Shown: piece after piece, positions 1,592 to 20,777 of the stretch
Layout: each line of letters opens with the position of its first letter
Numbering within the stretch: the stretch's first letter is position 1
NCBI GenBank assembly: GCA_020438485.1
Contig: JAGQUM010000030.1
Coordinates: forward strand, 1-44,016
DNA length: 44,016 nucleotides
Origin: Thermoleophilia bacterium
GTDB taxonomy: Bacteria > Actinomycetota > Thermoleophilia > Miltoncostaeales > Miltoncostaeaceae
Reading direction: 5' to 3'
Position numbers and translations under genes: made by a program
The notes under the pieces: model-generated
What the model was told of the DNA's origin: nothing
What the model saw: only the letters and a program-made list of their open reading frames with translations
The model's database searches: none

Positions 1592-2599
1592 ATGGAGCAT
1601 CCCCGGGTCACCGCTGCCGGCTTCCCGCTCATCCGGCCCCGCCGCCTGCGCACCACGCCGGCGATTCGCCGCATGGTCCGCGAGACCCGCCTTCACCCGG
1701 ACCAGCTCGTCCTCCCCATGTTCGCCGTCGACGGCGCCGGGGTGGAGGAGCCCATCGCGTCCCTCAAGGGGCACTCACGCCTCTCGGCCGACCTCATCGC
1801 CGCCCGTGCCGCCCGGGCGTACGCCGACGGCGTGCCGGCCGTCCTGCTGTTCGGCGTCAGCGACACCAAGGATGAGGAGGCCACCGCCTCGCACGACCCC
1901 GACGGAGCCGTCCAGCGGGCCGTCGCCGCCGTGAAGGACCGCGTCCCCGAGATGTGCGTCATCACCGACGTCTGCCTGTGCGCATACACGTCGCACGGGC
2001 ACTGCGGCGTGGTGGTGGACGGCCGTGTCGACAACGACCCGTCGCTCGAGATCCTGGCCCGCGCCGCCGTCAGCCACGCCGACGCCGGCGCCGACGTGGT
2101 GGCCCCCAGCGACATGATGGACGGCCGCGTGGCCGTCATCCGCCAGGCGCTCGACGCCGAGGGTCACGCCGAGACGGCGATCATGAGCTACTCCAGCAAG
2201 TACGCGTCGGCGTTCTACGGCCCGTTTCGCGACGCCGCCGGATCCGCCCCCGGGTTCGGCGACCGCAGCGGCTACCAGATGGACCCCGCCAACGCGCGCG
2301 AGGCCGTCCGCGAGAGCCTGCTGGACGAGGCCGAGGGCGCCGACTTCCTGATGGTCAAGCCCGCCGCGACGTACCTGGACGTCATCCGCGACGTCAGCCG
2401 GGCCAGCGACCTCCCCCTGGCCGCGTACCACGTCAGCGGGGAGTACGCGATGATCACCGCCGCCGCTGAGCGGGGGTTCCTGGACGAGCGCCGCGCCGCG
2501 CTCGAGACGCTGACGGCCATCACCCGCGCGGGCGCGGACCTGGTCATCACGTACTACGCCCACGACGCCGCCCGCTGGCTGTCCGAGGAGTCCGCATGA
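1592..2599 (+). CDS. hemB: delta-aminolevulinic acid dehydratase (porphobilinogen synthase)
   Basis: Joins two 5-aminolevulinate molecules into porphobilinogen, the second common step of tetrapyrrole synthesis, in the cytosol. The 335-residue product has the family's usual length. The zinc-type metal site is visible as DVCLCAYTSHGHCG, with three cysteines. The two active-site lysines lie in YSSKYASAFYGPF and LMVKPAATY. The C-terminal motif YHVSGEYAM is also intact. ATG 1592 is preferred because it opens the conserved sequence (the RRLR segment near residue 18) and sits 7 bases after a TAGACT box. First gene of a five-gene operon; its TGA overlaps the start of the next gene by 4 bases, so the Ahb-like protein is likely translationally coupled to it. 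hemA, hemC and hemD are not in the window. Confidence 0.97.
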   Translation: MEHPRVTAAGFPLIRPRRLRTTPAIRRMVRETRLHPDQLVLPMFAVDGAGVEEPIASLKGHSRLSADLIAARAARAYADGVPAVLLFGVSDTKDEEATASHDPDGAVQRAVAAVKDRVPEMCVITDVCLCAYTSHGHCGVVVDGRVDNDPSLEILARAAVSHADAGADVVAPSDMMDGRVAVIRQALDAEGHAETAIMSYSSKYASAFYGPFRDAAGSAPGFGDRSGYQMDPANAREAVRESLLDEAEGADFLMVKPAATYLDVIRDVSRASDLPLAAYHVSGEYAMITAAAERGFLDERRAALETLTAITRAGADLVITYYAHDAARWLSEESA

Positions 2600-3684
2600 C
2601 CACCACCGCGCCGCGCCCCATCCATCACAAGCCCGACGAGGCCGACAAGCAGCTGCTGAACGCGCTCCAGGCGGGGCTGCCACTGTCGCGCGCGCCGTTC
2701 GCCGAGATCGGCCGGGGCATCGGCATGAGCGAGGACGAGGTGCTGCGCCGCCTCGAGGTGCTGCGCCGCGCCGCCATCGTTCGCCAGGTCTCCGCGATCT
2801 TCGACACGCGCGCACTGGGCTACAAGAGCATGCTCGTCGCCGCGCGCTACCCGGAGGACAAACTGCACGAGGGCGCGGCCATCGTGGGCGGCCACCCCGG
2901 CGTCAGTCACAATTACCGCCGCAACCACGACTTCAACCTGTGGTTCACGCTGGCCGTCGAGCCCGACGCGCGCCTGGGCCTCGACGAGACCGTCGACATC
3001 CTGGCCGAGCGCACCGGCGCCGTCAGCATGCGGCAGCTGCCCACGCTGAAGCTGTTCAAGATCAACGTGCAGCTGGACATGACCGGCGACAAGGCCGCGA
3101 AGGAGGAGGCGCCCAAACCGCCGCCCAAGCGCGGCGACGGCGTGCTGCCCACCGAGGAGGACCGCCGCTTCATCTGCATCCTGCAGCGCGACCTCCCGGG
3201 CGTCAGCGACCCGTTCGGCCAGTGGGCCGACGAGGCCGGTGTCGGCGCTGACGAGCTGCTCGACCAGGCCGCTCGCTTCCAGGAGCGCAACTACATGCGC
3301 AGGTTCGCGGCCGTCCTCAACCACCGCCGCGCGGGCTTCGGCGCCAACGGCATGGCCGTGTGGCGTGTACCCGAGGACCGCATCGAGGAGGTCGGCCCCC
3401 AGATGGCCGCGTTCCGATCGGTGTCTCACTGCTACCGGCGCCCCACGTACGAGGACTGGCCGTACAACGTGTTCACGATGGTCCACTCGCGCAGCAAGGA
3501 GGCGTGCGAGGAGGTCATCCAGGGCATCGCCGACGAGACCGGCTTCACCGGGCCCGACGACCGCGCCGTCCTCTACTCCACCCTGGAGTACAAGAAGATC
3601 CGGCTGGTCTACTACACGCCCGAGTACCGGCAGTGGGAGGACATCGCGCTGGCCGGCGGCGAGCTTCCCCGCTGGGGCGCATGA
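2596..3684 (+). CDS. two-headed AhbA/AhbB-like siroheme decarboxylase or heme-linked Lrp-fold protein
   Basis: The 362-residue product is two Lrp/AsnC-like units in tandem, residues about 14-165 and 185-350, joined by a Lys/Pro linker. Each half has an N-terminal helix-turn-helix followed by an alpha/beta domain. The half-motifs are SHNYRR...FNLWF (His105, Tyr107, Asn114) and SHCYRR...WPYNVF (His278, Tyr280, Asn291). These are the hallmarks of AhbA/AhbB and NirD/L/G/H proteins, which remove acetate-side-chain carboxyls from siroheme to give didecarboxysiroheme. In most described organisms AhbA and AhbB are separate chains. The gene lies between hemB and hemL with 4-bp overlaps on both sides, which supports a job in tetrapyrrole metabolism and makes a general amino-acid regulator unlikely. 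It could instead be a heme-sensing regulator; sequence alone does not decide. Confidence 0.75.
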   Translation: MTTTAPRPIHHKPDEADKQLLNALQAGLPLSRAPFAEIGRGIGMSEDEVLRRLEVLRRAAIVRQVSAIFDTRALGYKSMLVAARYPEDKLHEGAAIVGGHPGVSHNYRRNHDFNLWFTLAVEPDARLGLDETVDILAERTGAVSMRQLPTLKLFKINVQLDMTGDKAAKEEAPKPPPKRGDGVLPTEEDRRFICILQRDLPGVSDPFGQWADEAGVGADELLDQAARFQERNYMRRFAAVLNHRRAGFGANGMAVWRVPEDRIEEVGPQMAAFRSVSHCYRRPTYEDWPYNVFTMVHSRSKEACEEVIQGIADETGFTGPDDRAVLYSTLEYKKIRLVYYTPEYRQWEDIALAGGELPRWGA

Positions 3685-4961: not shown

Positions 4962-5452
4962 TCCGCGACGAACTCGCCGGCGATCCCACGCTGGCCGCGC
5001 GCCTGCGCCCCGAGGCCGCGCCCGCGATCCTCTCGCCCGCCGCGGGCGGCCGCCTGGACCGCGCGCAGGCCACGGGCCTGGACCTGATCCTGGAGGGATT
5101 CCTGGCGCATCATGGCACGCCCCGTCATCTGTCCCCCGCTCCCGACCGGCACGTGCTGGCCGGCGACTACTGCTACGCCGCGGGCCTCGTCCGGGTGGCC
5201 GACGCCGGCGACGTGGAGGTCATCCGCGTGCTGGCCGACCTGGTGGCGCGGTCCGCGGGGCTCGTGGCCGACGGCCCCGACGTGCTGCCGCCCCTGTGGC
5301 GGGCCGCGATGGAGGCGATCGCCGACCCCGGCGCCGGGGGCATCGCGGCGTTCGATTCCGCGCTGGACGCGCTGGACGCCGGGGACGACGCGCCCCTGCG
5401 CACCTTGGGCGCCCGCGCCGCCGCCCGCGGCCTCGACGAGGCGCTGGCGTGA
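4958..5452 (+). CDS. small protein resembling an internal piece of a polyprenyl diphosphate synthase
   Basis: 164 residues, alanine-rich and probably all helical, with no signal peptide. Residues about 50-105 look like the middle of a trans-prenyl diphosphate synthase. The segment RHVLAGDYCYAAGLVRVA (64-81) lines up with RAVQVGDFLFARAFSVLA (111-128) of the full synthase encoded at 12724-13692, and HHGTP just before it lines up with RRGRP. The preceding first Asp-rich motif is absent, and no second DDxxD motif follows, so it cannot be an active synthase alone. GTG 4958 overlaps hemL's stop and its own stop overlaps the ubiD start. It might act as a non-catalytic partner, as in two-subunit heptaprenyl synthases, or bind polyprenyl compounds. 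The homology is my reading from motif spacing, not a search. Confidence 0.6.
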   Translation: MIRDELAGDPTLAARLRPEAAPAILSPAAGGRLDRAQATGLDLILEGFLAHHGTPRHLSPAPDRHVLAGDYCYAAGLVRVADAGDVEVIRVLADLVARSAGLVADGPDVLPPLWRAAMEAIADPGAGGIAAFDSALDALDAGDDAPLRTLGARAAARGLDEALA

Positions 5453-6891
5453 GCCGCGACTTGCGAGACTGGGTCGCCCGCCTGCGCAAGGCCGGTGAGC
5501 TGGTGGAGGTCACGGCCGAGGTCGATCCGCGCCTGGAGATCACGGAGATCACCGACAGGGTGACGAAGGCGGGCGGCCCGGCGCTGTTGTTCCGCAACGT
5601 CACCGGCAGCGACATGCCCGTGCTGATCAACCAGTTCGGCACCGAGAAGCGCATGTGCATGGCCCTCGACGTCGACTCGCTGGACGACCCCGGCAGGCGC
5701 ATCAAGGACCTCATCGAGCTGCAGCCGCCCCAGGGCCTGCTGGAGAAGGTGAAGGCGCTGGGCACACTGCGCGAGCTGGCGTCGTTCGGTGCGAAGGACG
5801 TCAGGACCGGCGCGTGCCAGGAGGTCGTCCACACCGAGCCCGACCTCACGCGGCTTCCCGTGCTGACGTGTTGGCCCGACGACGGCGGCCCGTTCGTGAC
5901 GCTGCCGCTGGTGTTCAGTCGCGACCCCGTGACGGGGGCCCGCAACTGCGGCATGTACCGCATCCAGGTCGTCGACGAGCGAACCGCGATGATGCACTGG
6001 CAGATCCACAAGGACGGCGCCGCCCACCTGCGCGACTCCCAGGGGCGGGTGGAGGTGGCCGTTGCCATCGGCACCGACCCGGCGACGACGTACTCGGCCA
6101 CCGCGCCGCTGCCGCCGGCGATCGACGAGATGATGTTCGCGGGCTTTCTGCGCGGCGGGAGCGTCGAGATGGTGAAGTGCCGCACCGTCGACGTCGAGGT
6201 GCCGGCGAACGCCGAGATCGTGCTGGAGGGCTACGTCGACGCCAACGACCTGCGCCCGGAGGGCCCGTTCGGCGACCACACCGGCTTTTACACGCCCGTG
6301 GACGAGTACCCGGCGTTCCACGTCACGGCCGTCACGCACCGCCGCGACCCGATCTACGCCACCACCATCGTGGGCCTGCCGCCGCAGGAGGACTTCTGGC
6401 TGGGCAAGGCCACCGAGCGCATGTTCCTGCCGCTCATCCGCACCAGCGTGCCGGACATGATCGATATGAACCTCCCGCTCGAGGGGGTGTTCCACAACTG
6501 CGCCGTCGTCAGCGTGAAGAAGCGCTACCCCGGCCACGCGAAGAAGCTGATGAACGCCGTTTGGGGCCTGGGTCTGCTGTCGTTGACCCGCTGCGTGATC
6601 GTCGTCGACCACGACGTCGACGTGCACGACCTCTCGGCCGTCGCGTTCCACGCGTTCTCGAACGTCGACCCCAAGCGTGATTCGCTGGTGGTGGAGGGTC
6701 CCGTCGACGCGCTCGACCACGCCGCCCCGTACTTCGCGTACGGCTCGAAGATCGGGTTCGACGCCACCCGCAAGTGGGAGGGCGAGGGCGTCGTGCGGCC
6801 GTGGCCCGAGAAGGCGCTGATGAGCGAGGAGGTCCGTGCGCGTGTCACGGCGCGGTGGGCCGAACTGGGGATCGACGTCCCGGAGCGGTAG
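5449..6891 (+). CDS. ubiD: UbiD-family prenylated-FMN decarboxylase
   Basis: 480 residues, the normal length. UbiD enzymes use prenylated FMN, supplied by UbiX, to remove a carboxyl group from aromatic or alpha,beta-unsaturated acids. Visible family signatures are the N-terminal DLRDWVARLRKAGEL, GMYRIQVVDE and HWQIHKDGAAHLR (binding loops for the modified flavin and metal). The catalytic ring residues lie in DLRPEGPFGDHTGFYT, and VKKRYPGHAKKLMNAVW follows. With mqnA, mqnC, ubiX and ubiE nearby, the likely role is the late decarboxylation in futalosine-pathway menaquinone synthesis (naphthoate substrate), not ubiquinone. Last gene of the hemB operon; GTG start overlaps the previous TGA. It meets the hydrolase gene tail to tail with 15 bases between. 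Confidence 0.92.
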   Translation: MSRDLRDWVARLRKAGELVEVTAEVDPRLEITEITDRVTKAGGPALLFRNVTGSDMPVLINQFGTEKRMCMALDVDSLDDPGRRIKDLIELQPPQGLLEKVKALGTLRELASFGAKDVRTGACQEVVHTEPDLTRLPVLTCWPDDGGPFVTLPLVFSRDPVTGARNCGMYRIQVVDERTAMMHWQIHKDGAAHLRDSQGRVEVAVAIGTDPATTYSATAPLPPAIDEMMFAGFLRGGSVEMVKCRTVDVEVPANAEIVLEGYVDANDLRPEGPFGDHTGFYTPVDEYPAFHVTAVTHRRDPIYATTIVGLPPQEDFWLGKATERMFLPLIRTSVPDMIDMNLPLEGVFHNCAVVSVKKRYPGHAKKLMNAVWGLGLLSLTRCVIVVDHDVDVHDLSAVAFHAFSNVDPKRDSLVVEGPVDALDHAAPYFAYGSKIGFDATRKWEGEGVVRPWPEKALMSEEVRARVTARWAELGIDVPER

Positions 6892-11387: not shown

Positions 11388-12005
11388 GTGAAGCGGATCT
11401 TCCTGGGCGTGACCGGCGCGAGCGGCGCGGCGTACGCGGCCCGCGCTCTCGAGGCGCTCACCACCGCCGGCTGTCACGTGGGCCTGTGCGTGAGCGACGC
11501 GGGGGCCCACGTCATCAACCACGAGCTCCTCGGCGGAGGCCGGGAGGCCCCCGCCGACCCGGCCGGCGTCGTCGCCCGCTTCGCGGACACGCAGTCCCGC
11601 GCTCCGGGGGAGGTGAGCGTGCTGGGCCTCCACGACATGGTCGCGCCGTTCGCGTCGGGCTCGTCCCTGGCCCCCGGCGCGCTCATCTGCCCCTGCTCGG
11701 GCGCCACGCTCGGCCACATCGCGTCCGGCGCCGCGCAGAACCTCATCCATCGCTGTGCGGACGTGATGCTGAAGGAACGACGTACTCTGGTGCTGATGAC
11801 CCGCGAGACGCCCCTCAGCCTCATCCACATCGAGAACATGGCCGCCGTCACCCGGGCGGGCGCCACGGTCATGCCCGCCGCGCCCGGCTTCTACAACCTG
11901 CCGGCGTCCGTCGGCGACCTCGTCGACTTCATGGTCGCCAGGGCCCTCGACCACCTGGGCGTCGACAACCGCCTGACAGGGCGCTGGGGAGCGCGGGCCA
12001 CGTGA
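11388..12005 (+). CDS. ubiX: flavin prenyltransferase
   Basis: 205 residues. Adds a dimethylallyl group to FMN to make prenylated FMN, the cofactor that UbiD decarboxylases need. The family signature is intact: GVTGASGAAYAARALEAL at the N terminus, the FMN-binding CPCSGATLGHIASG, and LVLMTRETPLSLIHIENM near the end. Most family members have a related serine- or asparagine-containing loop where this one has CSGATLG. It is the expected partner of the UbiD at 5449-6891. The two lie in separate operons on either side of qcrABC. GTG 11388 is chosen for its closeness to the TAGCAT box. The stop overlaps the next start by 4 bases. Confidence 0.95.
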   Translation: MKRIFLGVTGASGAAYAARALEALTTAGCHVGLCVSDAGAHVINHELLGGGREAPADPAGVVARFADTQSRAPGEVSVLGLHDMVAPFASGSSLAPGALICPCSGATLGHIASGAAQNLIHRCADVMLKERRTLVLMTRETPLSLIHIENMAAVTRAGATVMPAAPGFYNLPASVGDLVDFMVARALDHLGVDNRLTGRWGARAT

Positions 12006-12727
12006 CGGATTCACGCACCGACCCCCTCTCGGGCACGCTGTCCGCCGCCGACGTGCGGGCGATGTTCGATCGCGTGGCGCGGCGGTACGACCTGCTGAAC
12101 CGGGTCATGACCGTGGGACTGGATGGGCGCTGGCGCGAGCGGGCGGCCGCCGCGGCCGACGTCTCGGCCGGCGGATCCGCGCTCGACGTGTGCTGCGGCA
12201 CCGGCGACCTGGCGCTGGCGCTGCACCGCCGGGTGACCGCGTCGGGCCGCGTCGCGGGCGTGGACTTCTCGGAGAACATGCTGGAGCTGGCACGGGCCAA
12301 GGCGTCGGCGGCCGAGGCGGACATCGCGTTCGTGCAGGGCGACGCGCTGGCGCTCCCGTTCGGCGACGGCGAGTTCGACGCGTCGACCGTCGCGTTCGGC
12401 ATCCGCAACGTCGCGGACCTCGACGGATGCCTACGCGAGATGGCGCGCGTCGTGCGCCCCGGCGGCAGGGTGGTGGTGCTTGAGATCACCATGCCCGCCA
12501 AGCTGCAGGCGTTCTACGGCGCCTGGTTCGATCGCCTGGTGCCCGTGATGGGTCGGGTGCTGGGCGACGACGGCGCCGCGTACGGCTACCTGCCGGCGTC
12601 CGTGAAGCGCTTCCCCGGTCCCCGGGACCTGGCATCCCGCATGGCCGGCGCGGGCCTCACCGACATCCGCTGGCGCCTGTTCGCGGCGGGGATCATCGCG
12701 CTGCATTACGCCCGGGTGCCGCGTTGA
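12002..12727 (+). CDS. ubiE: UbiE/MenG demethylmenaquinone methyltransferase
   Basis: 241 residues. Performs the last step of menaquinone synthesis, SAM-dependent C-methylation of the naphthoquinol ring. Family features in order are FDRVARRYDLLNRVMTVGLDGRWR, the SAM-binding LDVCCGTGDLA, VDFSENMLELAR, FGIRNV and the C-terminal YGYLPASVKRFPGP. All are typical of UbiE/MenG, with normal length. The GTG start overlaps the ubiX stop, and the TGA overlaps the TTG of the next gene. Confidence 0.95.
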   Translation: MTDSRTDPLSGTLSAADVRAMFDRVARRYDLLNRVMTVGLDGRWRERAAAAADVSAGGSALDVCCGTGDLALALHRRVTASGRVAGVDFSENMLELARAKASAAEADIAFVQGDALALPFGDGEFDASTVAFGIRNVADLDGCLREMARVVRPGGRVVVLEITMPAKLQAFYGAWFDRLVPVMGRVLGDDGAAYGYLPASVKRFPGPRDLASRMAGAGLTDIRWRLFAAGIIALHYARVPR

Positions 12728-13692
12728 GCTCGGCCGCCGTGCCGGAGGCCGCCGCCGAGCGGGCGCTGGAGGGTCTGGCGGCCACGGAGGGTCTGCTGGC
12801 CGACGTGGTTGGCCACGGGCCGCGCGCCGTCACCCGCCCGGCCGGGCAGACGCTGGCGGCGGGCGGCAAACGCCTGCGTCCTCTCCTGGTGTTCTGCAGC
12901 TCCCCCACCGAGCGACCCCTCGACGCCGACCTGGTTGCGGCGGCCGCCTCGGTGGAGCTGATCCACATGGCCACGCTCGTGCACGACGACATCCTGGACG
13001 CCGCGGACCTGCGCCGCGGCAGGCCCACGGTGGTGGCCGCGCACGGCGCGTCGCGGGCGGTGCAGGTGGGCGACTTCCTATTCGCCCGCGCGTTCTCTGT
13101 GCTGGCTCGCACCGGGAGCGCCGACGCGGTGCGGGTACTCGCCGCCACATCGCTGGACCTCTCCAACGGAGAGCTGCTTCAGGGGCGCGCCGGGCACGAC
13201 GTGGCGCTGACCGAGGACGCGTACCTCGAACGCTGCCGCATGAAGACGGCGTCGCTGTTCGCCGCCTCGTGCCGCCTCGGCTGCCTGCTGGGAGGAGCGT
13301 CCGCCGAGGTAGAGCGACGGCTGGCGCGGTTCGGCACGTCTGTCGGACTGGCGTTCCAGATCTTCGACGACATCCTCGACCTCACCGCGACCGCCGACGC
13401 CACGGGCAAGACCCGCGGCGCGGACCTGCGTGACGGCACCGTCACGCTGCCCATGATCCTGGCGATGCGGAACGAGCCGGGCCTCGCCGCCCGCATCCGC
13501 GACGCGCACCGTGGCGGAGACGTGGACGCGGTCTGCGCCGAGCTGGCCGCCCATCCCGGCACGGCCGCGGCCCGCGAGCGGGCGCTGGGCTTCATCGCCG
13601 ACGCGCGCGATGCCGTCGAGGCGCCCCTCGACGGCATCGATCCGCTGCCGCTCGCGGCGATCGCCGACGGCGTGGTGGACCGCTACTCGTGA
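12724..13692 (+). CDS. polyprenyl diphosphate synthase (menaquinone side chain)
   Basis: 322 residues. Elongates allylic diphosphates with isopentenyl diphosphate to make the isoprenoid tail. Both Asp-rich motifs are present: DDILD at 88-92 and DDILD at 215-219. So are the GGKRLRP substrate site (48-53), the RRGRPT loop, and the KTASLF and KTRGADL segments. Large residues needed for short-chain arrest are not obvious before the first motif, which fits a long-chain (hepta- to nonaprenyl) product. The position between ubiE and mqnA supports a menaquinone role. The TTG start overlaps the previous TGA (TTGA), an uncommon start but the only one that keeps the N-terminal helix. Confidence 0.93.
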   Translation: MSSAAVPEAAAERALEGLAATEGLLADVVGHGPRAVTRPAGQTLAAGGKRLRPLLVFCSSPTERPLDADLVAAAASVELIHMATLVHDDILDAADLRRGRPTVVAAHGASRAVQVGDFLFARAFSVLARTGSADAVRVLAATSLDLSNGELLQGRAGHDVALTEDAYLERCRMKTASLFAASCRLGCLLGGASAEVERRLARFGTSVGLAFQIFDDILDLTATADATGKTRGADLRDGTVTLPMILAMRNEPGLAARIRDAHRGGDVDAVCAELAAHPGTAAARERALGFIADARDAVEAPLDGIDPLPLAAIADGVVDRYS

Positions 13693-14228
13693 CGCGCGAC
13701 GGGCTGATCCGCCTTCTGGAGGGCCGCGACCCCCTGGAGGCCGTCCGGGCCTTCGGCATCCGGGCGCCCACGGCGGTGCGCGTCGCGGCCCCCGCGCAGG
13801 ACGGCCGGCTGGTGGACGCCGGCCGCGAGGGGGCCATCGACGACCACCGCGCCGCGCACTCCGGGGGACGGCGCAGCGAGGCCGTCGTGGCCTACGGCGA
13901 CGGCGTCCCATGCGCCGCCGTGGCCGACCGGCTGCTGGCCCTCGGCGAGCTGTCGCGCGAGACGGGGATGCTGGTCGCGGTAACGCCGGTGCCTTCCGAG
14001 GGATCGTCTGCACGCCCCGGCTCGTGGGGCGTGGAGGACCTCGTGGTGATCGCGGCCGCCCGGGGCGTCATCCCGGGCGCCGCCATCCGTCCGTCGTGGG
14101 AGACCCTCGGCGCCCCCGCGGCGCAGGTGGCCCTGGCGTTCGGCGCCACCGAGTGGGCCGTGCCCGAGGGCGACGACACGGACCTCGACCGGCTGGCGCG
14201 CGCGGCGGGCTGCGCGGTGACCCGATGA
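13689..14228 (+). CDS. MqnC/MqnE-like C-terminal domain without a radical-SAM cluster
   Basis: 179 residues. From residue about 78 on it follows the last third of the futalosine radical-SAM enzymes. RLLALGELSRETGMLVAV lines up with HLRRLRELQDETGGFRAF of the mqnC product in this window. VEDLVVIAAARGVIPG matches the family's DYLRMLAVARLYLDNF region, and RPSWETLGAPAAQVALAFGA lines up with QSSWVTQGLRIGQLALEFGC. The N-terminal 75 residues are short and contain no CxxxCxxC, so it cannot hold the SAM-cleaving cluster. It overlaps neighbours by 4 bases on both sides (GTGA in, ATGA out), so it is part of the menaquinone operon and under selection as an open frame. It could be a non-catalytic partner or scaffold for MqnA or a radical enzyme, or a shortened relic. 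The function is unknown. Confidence 0.7.
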   Translation: MTRDGLIRLLEGRDPLEAVRAFGIRAPTAVRVAAPAQDGRLVDAGREGAIDDHRAAHSGGRRSEAVVAYGDGVPCAAVADRLLALGELSRETGMLVAVTPVPSEGSSARPGSWGVEDLVVIAAARGVIPGAAIRPSWETLGAPAAQVALAFGATEWAVPEGDDTDLDRLARAAGCAVTR

Positions 14229-15028
14229 CCCGCCCCGGGCTGGCCGTAGGCCGCATCGCGGCGCTCAACATGTACCCGCTGTACCACCACCTGGAATCGG
14301 CTGCGGGCGACCGCTTCGCGTACACGGACGGGGTTCCGACCGCGCTCAACCGCGCGCTGCTGGGTGGCCGCATCCACGTGTCGGCCATGTCGTCCATCGA
14401 GTTCGCCCGCAATCACGACGCGCTGCGCCTGCTGCCGGTCGCGTCCATCACGGCGTCCGGCGCCGTCGACTCCATCGCGGTGTTCTCGCGGCGGCCGCTC
14501 GGCGACCTGGGCACCATCGCGATCACGCCCAACAGCGCGACGTCCGTGGCGCTGCTGCGCGTGCTGGTGGGTCCCGGGCCGCGCTTCGTGCCCCAGCGTG
14601 GCGAGCCGCGCGAGGCGCTGGGGCAGGCGGACGGTGTGCTGCTGATCGGCGACGAGGCCCTGCAGGCCCGCCGGTCGGGCCTCGCCCCCGTCGCCACCGA
14701 CCTGGGGGCGCTGTGGACCGAGCGCACCGGCCTGCCCATGGTGTTCGCCGTCTGGGCCGTGCGGCGCGACCTCGACCCGGCCCTCGACGCCGACGTCGAC
14801 ACGCTGGCGGGGCTGCTGGAGGACGCCCGCCGCGCGTACGACGCCGATCCGGAGGCGGTCGTGGCCGCCGCGGCCCGCCGGTTCCCGTTCCCCGCGCCGT
14901 ACGTGTCGACGTATCTGGCGCGGCTGAGCTACGGTTTCGGCAGCCGCGAGCGCGACGCGCTCGCGGCGTTCTACGACCGCGCCGTCGAGGCGGGCGAGCT
15001 CGCTCGCGTCCCCGCCCTCGCGGCCTGA
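14225..15028 (+). CDS. mqnA: chorismate dehydratase
   Basis: 267 residues, normal for MqnA. First step of the futalosine route: dehydrates chorismate to 3-[(1-carboxyvinyl)oxy]benzoate. The protein has the periplasmic-binding-protein-like fold of this family. Recognisable segments are RIAALNMYPLYHHL, DGVPTALNRALLGGRIHVSA followed by MSSIEFARN, ITPNSATSVALLRVL and DGVLLIGDEAL, and the C-terminal YLARLSYGF with helices. ATG overlaps the previous stop. mqnC follows after 15 bases, almost certainly on the same transcript. Confidence 0.95.
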   Translation: MTRPGLAVGRIAALNMYPLYHHLESAAGDRFAYTDGVPTALNRALLGGRIHVSAMSSIEFARNHDALRLLPVASITASGAVDSIAVFSRRPLGDLGTIAITPNSATSVALLRVLVGPGPRFVPQRGEPREALGQADGVLLIGDEALQARRSGLAPVATDLGALWTERTGLPMVFAVWAVRRDLDPALDADVDTLAGLLEDARRAYDADPEAVVAAAARRFPFPAPYVSTYLARLSYGFGSRERDALAAFYDRAVEAGELARVPALAA

Positions 15029-15043
15029 CACGGAACACCGCGC

Positions 15044-16156
15044 ATGAGCACCCACTCCGTCGACACCGTCACCGAGATCCTCGACCGCGCCCGCGCGGGG
15101 CAGCGCATCACGGACGCCGAGGCCCTGGCGCTGTGGGACGAGGCAGACCTGGTCAGCCTCGGCGAGGCCGCCCGTGAGCGCCGCGAGGCCCTCACGCCCG
15201 CCGGCGACGTGACGTTCTCCATCGACCGGAACGTCAACTACACCAACTTCTGCATCACGGACTGCGACTTCTGCGCGTTCTACCGCCTGCCGCGCGACCC
15301 CGAGGGCTACGTTCTGCCCAAGAGCGTCATCTTCCGCAAGACCGAGGAGACGCTGGACCTGGGCGGGACGGCGCTGCTGCTGCAGGGCGGCCACCATCCG
15401 GGCCTGCGCATCGAGTACTACGAGGACCTATTCAGCAGCCTCAAGGGGCGCTACCCCATCCACCTCCACGCGCTGTCGCCGTCGGAGGTGCTGCACATCG
15501 CGCATTTCTCCCGCATCAGCCTGGACGAGACGCTCGACCGCCTCGTGGCGGCGGGGCTCGACTCGATCCCCGGCGGCGGCGCCGAGATCCTGGTGGACCG
15601 CGTGCGCCAGGTGATCGCCCCGAAGAAGACCACCACGGCCGAGTGGCTGGGCGTCATGCGGGCCGCACACGGCAAGGGGCTCTCCACGACGGCCACGATG
15701 ATGTACGGAACCGTCGACACCCCCGCGGACCGGGTGGAGCACCTGCGCCGCCTGCGCGAACTGCAGGACGAGACCGGCGGGTTCCGGGCCTTCGTGTGCT
15801 GGAGCTACCAGTCGGGCGGTTGCAGCAAGGCGGGGGACGACCACCCGGGCGGCACCGCCACCGACTACCTGCGGATGCTGGCCGTCGCCCGCCTTTACCT
15901 CGACAACTTCGCCCACTTCCAGTCGTCATGGGTCACGCAGGGTCTGCGCATCGGGCAGCTGGCGCTGGAGTTCGGCTGCGACGACATGGGCTCGATCATG
16001 ATCGAGGAGAACGTCGTGCGGGCCGCCGGCACCGCGTTCCGCCTCGACACCGAGCGCATGGTGCGTGCCATCGAGGCGACCAACCGCACGGCGGTGCAAC
16101 GCGACACGCTGTACCGGGAGGTGCGGCGGTTCGCCCCGGTGCCCGCGGCCGCCTGA
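15044..16156 (+). CDS. mqnC: cyclic dehypoxanthinyl futalosine synthase
   Basis: 370 residues, a radical SAM enzyme that cyclises dehypoxanthinyl futalosine. The cluster motif is C70-ITD-C74-DF-C77 in NFCITDCDFCAFYR, which is the MqnC version of CxxxCxxC. TIM-barrel signatures include LLLQGGHHPGLRIEYYEDL, HALSPSEVLHIA, IPGGGAEIL and TTATMMYGTVDTPADRVEHL, and the C-terminal FGCDDMGSIMIEENVV. Aminofutalosine synthase MqnE usually shows a different sequence after the cluster, so MqnC is the better call. Last gene of the ubiX operon. It meets the rhodanese gene tail to tail with one base between the stops. Confidence 0.95.
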   Translation: MSTHSVDTVTEILDRARAGQRITDAEALALWDEADLVSLGEAARERREALTPAGDVTFSIDRNVNYTNFCITDCDFCAFYRLPRDPEGYVLPKSVIFRKTEETLDLGGTALLLQGGHHPGLRIEYYEDLFSSLKGRYPIHLHALSPSEVLHIAHFSRISLDETLDRLVAAGLDSIPGGGAEILVDRVRQVIAPKKTTTAEWLGVMRAAHGKGLSTTATMMYGTVDTPADRVEHLRRLRELQDETGGFRAFVCWSYQSGGCSKAGDDHPGGTATDYLRMLAVARLYLDNFAHFQSSWVTQGLRIGQLALEFGCDDMGSIMIEENVVRAAGTAFRLDTERMVRAIEATNRTAVQRDTLYREVRRFAPVPAAA

Positions 16157-16895: not shown

Positions 16896-17327
16896 CTAGA
16901 AGTCCATCGGCTGGATGAGGTCCATGTCGAGGGCCGCGATGAGGCGCTCGACGTCCTCCTCCATGTTCGCGCGGGAGTACTCGCGCAGCCGGGTCAGCAG
17001 GCGCTCCGTGCCGTCGTTCAGCACGTCGTCGAACAGCTCGACCTCGCTCTGGTGGAACTCGCCCTCGTGGCGCCACTCGCAGTTGGGGCAGCGCCGCTCG
17101 ACGAACCACGTGTCGTCCGAGCGCTCGTCCCACGACACCGGGTACACGAGGTCGCTCGAACACGACTCGCACACGTGCAGGTCGACAGCCGACGACACGT
17201 CCGCCGGGTGACCCTTGGCGTCGGCATCCCCGCTCGGCGTGTCGCCGGGCTCAGGATCCGAGAAGTACACGATCTCGATGACTCGCCCTCCGGGCAGCGC
17301 GATTTTCTTCGTCCGGTAGCCCTTCAT
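16896..17327 (-). CDS. conserved-looking small protein with a zinc ribbon, function unknown
   Basis: 143 residues. Two CxxC knuckles, C53-ES-C56 and C80-PN-C83, could bind zinc. The knuckles are followed by an acidic helical tail (EVELFDDVLNDGTERLLTRL and RANMEEDVERLIAAL). The N terminus (KKIALPGGRVIEIVYFSD) is beta-like. The fold resembles proteins that recognise nucleic acid or another protein through a zinc ribbon, but I do not recognise the family. ATG 17327 has a good purine-rich site (GGGGAAGG) just upstream. The gene is separated from lipA by 139 bases, so it is probably a unit of its own. Confidence 0.75.
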   Translation of the reverse strand: MKGYRTKKIALPGGRVIEIVYFSDPEPGDTPSGDADAKGHPADVSSAVDLHVCESCSSDLVYPVSWDERSDDTWFVERRCPNCEWRHEGEFHQSEVELFDDVLNDGTERLLTRLREYSRANMEEDVERLIAALDMDLIQPMDF

Positions 17328-19460: not shown

Positions 19461-20777
19461 GTGCGGTTGCTGCGCGCCGCGTGGGTCGCGCCGATCGCGG
19501 ACGACCCCGTCGCGGACGGCGCCCTGGCGCTCGATGGCGGGCTGATCGTCGCGGTCGGTCCGTGGGAGCGAGTGCGCGCCGACCATCCCGACGCCGTCGT
19601 GGACGACGTGGGCGGCGTCGTGCTGATTCCCGGGCTGATCGACGTCCACTGCCACCTGGAGTGGAGCCTGGTGGGAGGCCTGTTCTCGGGCGCCCACGGT
19701 TTCGGGCGCTGGATCGCGGGCCTGCTGTCGCTGTTCCCCCTGGCCGAGGGCCTGCTGGACGACGCGGCACGGCTGGCGGCGCTGCGGGCGCTCCAGGCGG
19801 GATCCACCACGCTGCACGACAACGGCCCCACGGGTGCGGGCGTCGCGGCGCTCACCGAGGCCGGCCTGCGCGGAACCGTGCACCTGGAGGCGTTCGGGTC
19901 CGACCCCGCGGCTGCCGGCGAGGTTGCCCGGCGCACCGCTGACGGCGTCGCGGCGCTGGCCGCCGCCGCGGGACCCCGCGTGGCGGTGGGGGTGTCGCCC
20001 CACGCCCCCTACTCGGCGGGCCCGGAGCTGTGGCACGCCCTGACCCGGGCGCTGCCCGACGGCGTGTCGTGGAGCACGCACATCGCGGAGTCGCAGGACG
20101 AACGCGACGCCCTGTCGGGCCGGGCCGGCGGATTGGCCGACGTGTTCGCGCCGATCGGCGTCGGCATCGCCCGGTGGCCCGGTGCGGCGCACGGGTCGTC
20201 GGTGCGCGCCATGGCCGAGGCGGGCGTGCTCGGCGAGGGCCTGGTGGCGGCGCACCTCGTGCACGTCGACGAGCGCGACGCGGAGCTGCTGGCGCGGCAC
20301 GGCGTGCGCGCCGCGCACTGCCCCGTCTCGAACGCCACCCTCCGGTGCGGGCGCAGCCCCGTCGAGATGCTGCGCGCGGCGGGCGTCCCGCTCGCGCTCG
20401 GCACCGACTCGCCCGGCAGCGCCGGCACGTACGACCTGCGCGCCGAGGCGCGCGCCTGCCTGGCCACCCACGCGGCGGCGGGACTGCACCACACCCCGCG
20501 CGAACTGCTGGCGATGTGCACGCGGGACGCCGCCCATGCGCTCGGGCGGGACGACGTGGGGGCCCTGGTGCCCGGGCGCCGCGCAGACGTCGTCGCGATC
20601 CGACCCCGGCCGGAGGCCCTGCCCGGCGACCCGCACGCGGCCGCGCTCGACGCGGGCTCGCGCGTGGAGCACGTCTGGGTCGACGGCGAGCCGCTGCTGC
20701 GGGACGGCATACCGGTGCGCGTCGACGCGGCCGAGATCGAAACGCGCGCGGGCGGCCGTCGGCTGGCGGTCTGTTAG
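19461..20777 (+). CDS. amidohydrolase, candidate aminodeoxyfutalosine deaminase
   Basis: 438 residues of the metal-dependent amidohydrolase superfamily, cytosine-deaminase/TrzN-like branch. Metal ligands are visible as HCH in IDVHCHLEWS, His in AAHLVHVDERD and Asp in LGTDSPGSAG. Substrate residues probably lie in SPHAPYS and HIAESQDE. Deaminases of this type remove the amino group from adenine-containing compounds. In some futalosine-pathway organisms such a protein converts aminodeoxyfutalosine to futalosine, and this locus lies 3.3 kb from mqnC. S-adenosylhomocysteine, guanine or chlorinated-ring substrates are alternatives. GTG 19461 is 14 bases after the tatA stop, so both are probably co-transcribed. 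Confidence 0.8.
   Translation: MRLLRAAWVAPIADDPVADGALALDGGLIVAVGPWERVRADHPDAVVDDVGGVVLIPGLIDVHCHLEWSLVGGLFSGAHGFGRWIAGLLSLFPLAEGLLDDAARLAALRALQAGSTTLHDNGPTGAGVAALTEAGLRGTVHLEAFGSDPAAAGEVARRTADGVAALAAAAGPRVAVGVSPHAPYSAGPELWHALTRALPDGVSWSTHIAESQDERDALSGRAGGLADVFAPIGVGIARWPGAAHGSSVRAMAEAGVLGEGLVAAHLVHVDERDAELLARHGVRAAHCPVSNATLRCGRSPVEMLRAAGVPLALGTDSPGSAGTYDLRAEARACLATHAAAGLHHTPRELLAMCTRDAAHALGRDDVGALVPGRRADVVAIRPRPEALPGDPHAAALDAGSRVEHVWVDGEPLLRDGIPVRVDAAEIETRAGGRRLAVC

Follow-up and report, generated by a model that had tools for sequence, protein, structure and literature searches.

A MqnE-derived protein without the radical-SAM core occupies the mqnE slot of the menaquinone operon in one family of Actinomycetota

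Introduction

What can a protein of 179 residues do in a menaquinone operon when it is related to the radical-SAM enzymes of the futalosine route and lacks their core? The question is raised by an ORF in the 44,016-nucleotide stretch of DNA analysed here (contig JAGQUM010000030.1, hereafter the window), which encodes most of this route, namely UbiD, UbiX, UbiE/MenG, a prenyl synthase, the ORF, MqnA and MqnC, and in whose translated sequence a Rieske/cytochrome b region can also be read. The futalosine menaquinone route does not occur in humans, and in other bacteria it is under study as a drug target. We tentatively propose, at a probability of about 0.45, that the ORF encodes a pseudo-MqnE that arose from the operonic mqnE by deletion of the core and works non-catalytically, as a partner or regulator of another protein that is most likely MqnC. 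The genes concerned are the following.

5296-6891, + strand: UbiD-family menaquinone biosynthesis decarboxylase (TIGR03701 above cut-off)
11388-12005, + strand: UbiX-type flavin prenyltransferase (Pfam and NCBIfam scans)
12005-12727, + strand: UbiE/MenG methyltransferase (Pfam and NCBIfam scans)
12724-13692, + strand: polyprenyl diphosphate synthase (Pfam and NCBIfam scans)
13689-14228, + strand: core-deleted MqnE paralogue ("pseudo-MqnE"), 179 aa (profile matches, orthologue alignment, predicted fold)
14225-15028, + strand: mqnA, chorismate dehydratase (PF02621)
15044-16156, + strand: mqnC, cyclic dehypoxanthinyl futalosine synthase (TIGR03699 above cut-off)

Results

The ORF and its homology to MqnE

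At the coordinates given in an earlier note on this DNA, the ORF starts with GTG at 13689 and ends with a TGA at 14228, sharing 4 bp with the stop of the prenyl synthase gene (GTGA, 13689-13692) and 4 bp with the start of mqnA (ATGA, 14225-14228). MqnD of the source genome is encoded on another contig. Near the operon, an amidohydrolase (19461-20777) resembles the aminofutalosine deaminase family NF006269 with 125 bits against a cut-off of 320 and is a candidate deaminase of the route.

The same note had matched the ORF to the C-terminal part of MqnC, and BLASTP bears this out with 32% identity over 131 columns (E 3e-8; MqnC residues 206-332). As the closest comparison, MqnC nevertheless gives way to MqnE, whose profiles match better and whose gene is the parent: among NCBIfam models the ORF scored E 4e-5 with TIGR00423 (CofH family) and E 2e-4 with TIGR03700 (MqnE), the MqnC profile being weaker, and its profile scores were likewise higher with operonic MqnE than with the MqnE encoded elsewhere in the genome (ectopic MqnE). 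One orthologue (L019) reached E 1.7e-13 with TIGR00423. When an HMM of MqnE from sister families was run on the 345 open frames of the window, it matched only the MqnC frame and the ORF, the latter with 40.7-42.1 bits (E 2e-12), whereas 5.2 bits was the highest score among 2000 shuffled versions of the ORF. A PDB search with the ORF as single sequence gave no match, and one with its family profile found MqnE 6xi9 at E 1e-8.

The absence of CxxxCxxC, also claimed earlier, holds for the ORF, which has two cysteines, and for all 34 aligned family members. Lacking this motif, which binds the [4Fe-4S] cluster, the ORF falls outside the radical SAM superfamily (PF04055), to which a Pfam scan gave no match in it either. 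With 20.3 bits (48.3 in the best short relative tested), it stays far below the equivalog cut-off of TIGR03700 (434.55 bits), and its 13.6 bits with PF19288, the C-terminal region of CofH and MqnC, fall short of the gathering score of 27 bits. Calling the protein unrecognised was thus justified, as none of the Pfam, NCBIfam and PDB entries scanned covers the short form; nor did our searches of the literature turn up a core-less MqnE.

Predicted fold

An AlphaFold model of the ORF, built on 34 orthologues, had a pLDDT of 95.4 and a pTM of 0.91. Its four best Foldseek matches were all MqnE of Pedobacter heparinus (E 2e-7 to 2e-6), and a structural aligner superposed 179 of its 179 residues onto residues 33-366 of 6xi9 (Z 16.4, rmsd 2.5). 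In this model the protein retains the N-terminal helices, beta1 and beta5-8 of MqnE and is without strands beta2-4 and the Fe-S loop. The parts of the ORF are assigned as follows.

13689-13754, + strand: residues 1-22, two N-terminal helices superposed on those of MqnE 6xi9 from residue 33 (predicted structure)
13773-13784, + strand: residues 29-32, strand that would correspond to MqnE beta1, which in MqnE leads into the CxxxCxxC loop (structure and alignment)
13785-13835, + strand: residues 33-49, deletion scar, marking the loss of about 140 residues of MqnE with the Fe-S loop and beta2-beta4 (alignments)
13875-14156, + strand: residues 63-156, beta5-beta8 and associated helices, homologous to the MqnE barrel's C-terminal half (structure and profile alignments)
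14013-14039, + strand: residues 109-117, RPGSWGVED, invariant or near-invariant beta6-alpha6 loop (alignment)

Judged from the aligned ranges and the sequence alignment, the chain would pass from beta1 straight to beta5-beta8 and the C-terminal element, skipping the Fe-S loop and beta2-beta4. Such a deletion removes all the elements that carry the cluster and most SAM-binding motifs of the radical-SAM fold. The proteins of genus g9 (e.g., L026:1378-1836) have lost about 28 aa more at the scar in a second in-frame deletion, which leaves them with about 153 aa and an undisturbed predicted fold; the model of this form (pLDDT 93.5) superposed with all 153 of its 153 residues on 6xi9 (Z 14.4, rmsd 2.2).

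A simple N-terminal truncation of MqnE was considered as well, since hmmscan and global hhalign set the N-terminus of the ORF against MqnE residues of about 105-200. Sequence alone gives the N-terminal part weak support (hhalign E 0.04). We prefer an internal deletion because both predicted structures superpose on MqnE over their full length, beginning with its first helices (chain residue 33). The earlier description as a C-terminal domain therefore captures the homologous C-terminal half and the missing core and leaves out the N-terminal helices and first strand that are also kept: according to the models, the ORF is an MqnE with an internal deletion and more than a C-terminal domain.

Distribution and descent

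A search of 100 relatives found short orthologues, 42-65% identical to the ORF, in nearly all genomes of its family (f1, Actinomycetota), where the protein is 150-187 aa long; both 4-bp overlaps recur in most genera of the family. Two orthologues come from public metagenome-assembled genomes of Actinomycetota (CAJAPZ010000002.1 and SYFI01000103.1). Applied to 396 genomes of the phylum, the family profile scored 176-270 bits in f1 and at most 78 bits in all others, there on open frames of full MqnE length, and this clean split makes the short form specific to one family in the sample; about 386 genomes sampled outside f1 yielded none. Its occurrence in about 38 independent genomes rules out an assembly artefact.

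In the regions read from the sister families f2, f3, f4, f6 and f8, the slot before mqnA and mqnC, which comes after UbiE or after UbiX-UbiE-prenyl synthase, is occupied by a full-length mqnE that encodes CxxxCxxC, and its product was above the MqnE cut-off in seven of seven cases tested. Wherever an f1 operon carries the short ORF, it stands in this very slot, between the prenyl synthase gene and mqnA; the gene is therefore a truncated mqnE. The only full-length MqnE of f1 is encoded outside the operon, in the source genome on another contig (G000:C78:81899-83056; locus L056:3900-5057) and with the motif CVVGCGFC. This ectopic MqnE is 72-92% conserved within f1, only 39-47% identical to operonic MqnE, and scores just under the MqnE cut-off (414 vs 434.6 bits). 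The phylum samples searched held no relative of it above 47% identity, and its gene may have been acquired horizontally long ago and have taken the place of the operonic mqnE.

When a tree was built on the shared region, all ORFs fell into one clade (support 100/100), which sat on a long branch inside operonic MqnE (95/89), apart from both ectopic MqnE and MqnC; by an AU test, however, a grouping of the ORF with ectopic MqnE was not rejected (p 0.45). Furthermore, G114 and D117 (both family-invariant), Q146 and Y69 of the ORF are the residues of operonic and not of ectopic MqnE, and G114 and D117 differ from MqnC too. Synteny, tree and signature residues agree that the ORF is what remains of the operon's own mqnE, and the fold (Z 16.4 over 179/179 residues) likewise speaks for descent from MqnE. 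The earlier note had held that orthologues with a full radical-SAM domain would reveal the ORF as a truncated copy. Full-length mqnE does stand in the slot in sister families, and to that extent the ORF is truncated; it is not a broken copy, because the truncation is ancestral to f1 and has been kept under purifying selection.

Selection and conserved residues

By a simple Nei-Gojobori estimate on 14 pairs, dN/dS of the ORF was 0.11-0.38 in 13 pairs and 0.59 in the diverged pair from its own genus (G000/G001), above that of the neighbouring genes in most pairs, yet below 1. Across 34 sequences from 11 genera, 20 residues are invariant, 13 of which map to the C-terminal strand ends or to positions after them, on the beta-to-alpha face (Fisher p 1e-3 over all residues), the face that carries the active sites in such barrels. 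W113, W156, P159 and P129 are newly invariant compared with MqnE. These values are not those of a pseudogene or neutral relic free of purifying selection, and the earlier argument from coupling for a working protein gains from them and from the coupled frames conserved through most of the family.

Natural loss in genus g7

Genus g7 (G007 and G016) is without the ORF, and its prenyl synthase gene overlaps mqnA directly by 4 bp. A combined tree nests g7 inside f1 and thereby indicates one loss; the single-gene trees nest it too, a basal place being excluded by MqnE alone (p 0.03) and not by the other genes. As g7 lives without the ORF, this genus has no strict need of the protein. At positions invariant in the 31 other f1 sequences, g7 MqnC (L092 and L093, compared with window 15044-16156) has nine changes out of 187, against 0-4 in other clades, while changes at f1-invariant positions number 0/189 in MqnE, 0/64 in MqnA and 0/75 in the prenyl synthase. 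Around the cluster motif of MqnC there are four of these changes, just ahead of it or within 11 residues after it (residues 69, 85, 86 and 88), and near the C-terminus there are three (327, 334 and 342); several are reversions to residues seen in sister families, and g7 MqnC as a whole evolves at an ordinary rate that is not raised. Since this comparison was chosen after looking at the data and concerns a single loss event, the pattern is a lead, not proof, for MqnC as the partner of the ORF.

Discussion

The retention of the ORF throughout its family suggests that it probably helps or regulates the menaquinone pathway without performing radical chemistry itself, and the accessory factor that the earlier note had in mind is plausible. 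In having lost its catalytic residues while an active-looking full-length MqnE (CVVGCGFC) and MqnC are encoded in the same genome, it resembles a pseudoenzyme; the other mark of a regulatory one would be a complex with the active paralogue that alters its activity, for which the pattern in g7 MqnC is an indirect hint. In the mechanism that we propose, a second, complete mqnE at another locus would have taken over the aminofutalosine synthase reaction in the ancestor of f1, and an internal deletion would have taken the radical-SAM core, with the Fe-S loop and beta2-4, out of the operonic mqnE. The remnant would fold as a compact five-stranded partial barrel that could no longer bind a [4Fe-4S] cluster in the usual way and would keep the conserved surface of the catalytic face. 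Made by coupled translation between the prenyl synthase and MqnA, pseudo-MqnE would, as we infer for both partner and mechanism, bind a full-length radical-SAM enzyme of the pathway, for which MqnC is the best candidate, and once bound it may tune or stabilise this partner or pass on an intermediate. A more specific version, possible though less probable, is that the mini-barrel, with beta1 beside beta5, has gained a ligand site of its own, through which it would control MqnC or supply it with an intermediate.

The explanations that compete with a pseudo-MqnE partnered with MqnC differ in what they take from the same evidence. An origin by duplication of mqnC or from the ectopic mqnE could appeal to the BLASTP match to MqnC (E 3e-8) and to the AU test; we consider it very improbable in view of the mqnE slot, the better profile scores with MqnE than MqnC and with operonic than ectopic MqnE, the operonic signature residues and the tree support of 95/89. 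Least likely of all is a relic that persists for no other reason than to serve as the spacer through which translation is coupled from prenyl synthase to mqnA. Overlaps of 4 bp on both sides and an evolution faster than that of the neighbours in most pairs would suit such a relic, but it sits badly with 20 invariant residues over 11 genera, purifying selection at the amino-acid level and a well-packed predicted fold, and g7, which retains ATGA/GTGA coupling without the ORF, indicates that a spacer is not needed.

The main rival, which we regard as doubtful, is a half-barrel that binds a ligand or catalyses a non-radical reaction of the pathway in its own right, for instance as a binder of some benzoate-type intermediate or as the catalyst of a step whose usual gene f1 lacks. 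The clustering of invariant residues at the C-terminal ends of beta5-beta8 would agree with this, as would the new invariant Trp113, Trp156 and Pro159, which give the impression of a remodelled pocket together with Arg134 (Lys in MqnE) and Trp137, both retained, and the lack in f1 of any MqnB (TIGR03664) over the cut-off. The tested members of f2, f3 and f6, however, are equally without MqnB by the same test and keep a full-length mqnE, so that the missing MqnB has no link to the ORF and we rejected the ORF as its replacement; moreover, the ORF contains no known catalytic motif, and g7 lost it with no obvious substitute. The only PNP_UDP_1 protein of the source genome looks by sequence like a purine nucleoside phosphorylase. 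We think it unlikely that the ORF is instead a partner of ectopic MqnE or of MqnA, channelling 3-enolpyruvylbenzoate: its descent from MqnE and the coupling of its translation to mqnA through the 4-bp overlap would favour these partners, but in g7 the changes at family-invariant positions fall in MqnC and in neither MqnE nor MqnA.

With MqnE (TIGR03700; 6xi9/6xig, P. heparinus) the ORF shares whole-length homology, the slot in sister families, the N-terminal helices, beta1 and beta5-8, and the residues YG, PGxxGxED, R, W, LG and FG. MqnE has about 370 aa, whereas the ORF, besides the roughly 140 residues with CxxxCxxC, beta2-beta4 and most SAM-binding motifs, also lacks a stretch after beta8. 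MqnC (TIGR03699), with its CofH_C region (PF19288), has a homologous C-terminal half and is the more distant relative; at position 134, the ORF has the basic residue (R/K) typical of MqnE where MqnC has Gln. In trypanosomatids, AdoMetDC and deoxyhypusine synthase are each activated by a catalytically dead paralogue in a demonstrated complex (PMC5201418, PMC3663545). Like these activators, the ORF is a paralogue of a pathway enzyme that lacks catalytic residues and is retained beside an active copy, but it is known from sequence and predicted fold, and in it the whole cofactor-binding half of the fold has been deleted. Dead paralogues of metabolic enzymes are thus familiar, while the loss of the cofactor-binding half of a radical-SAM barrel is unusual: what is left still has a confidently predicted fold and is under constraint, with the active gene elsewhere. 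If the proposal is right, it adds an unrecognised component to the futalosine route and illustrates how TIM-barrel enzymes can shrink to five strands, and the version with a ligand site and control of MqnC would imply a new control point of the pathway. The clean natural loss in g7 offers a ready comparison for finding the partner.

Two further genes of the window deserve mention. A 143-aa protein encoded at 16896-17327 (- strand), between a rhodanese-domain gene and lipoyl synthase, had no match in Pfam or NCBIfam. At 2596-3684, the siroheme decarboxylase subunits AhbA and AhbB are fused in a protein of 362 aa, whose gene adjoins that of porphobilinogen synthase (about 1148-2599).
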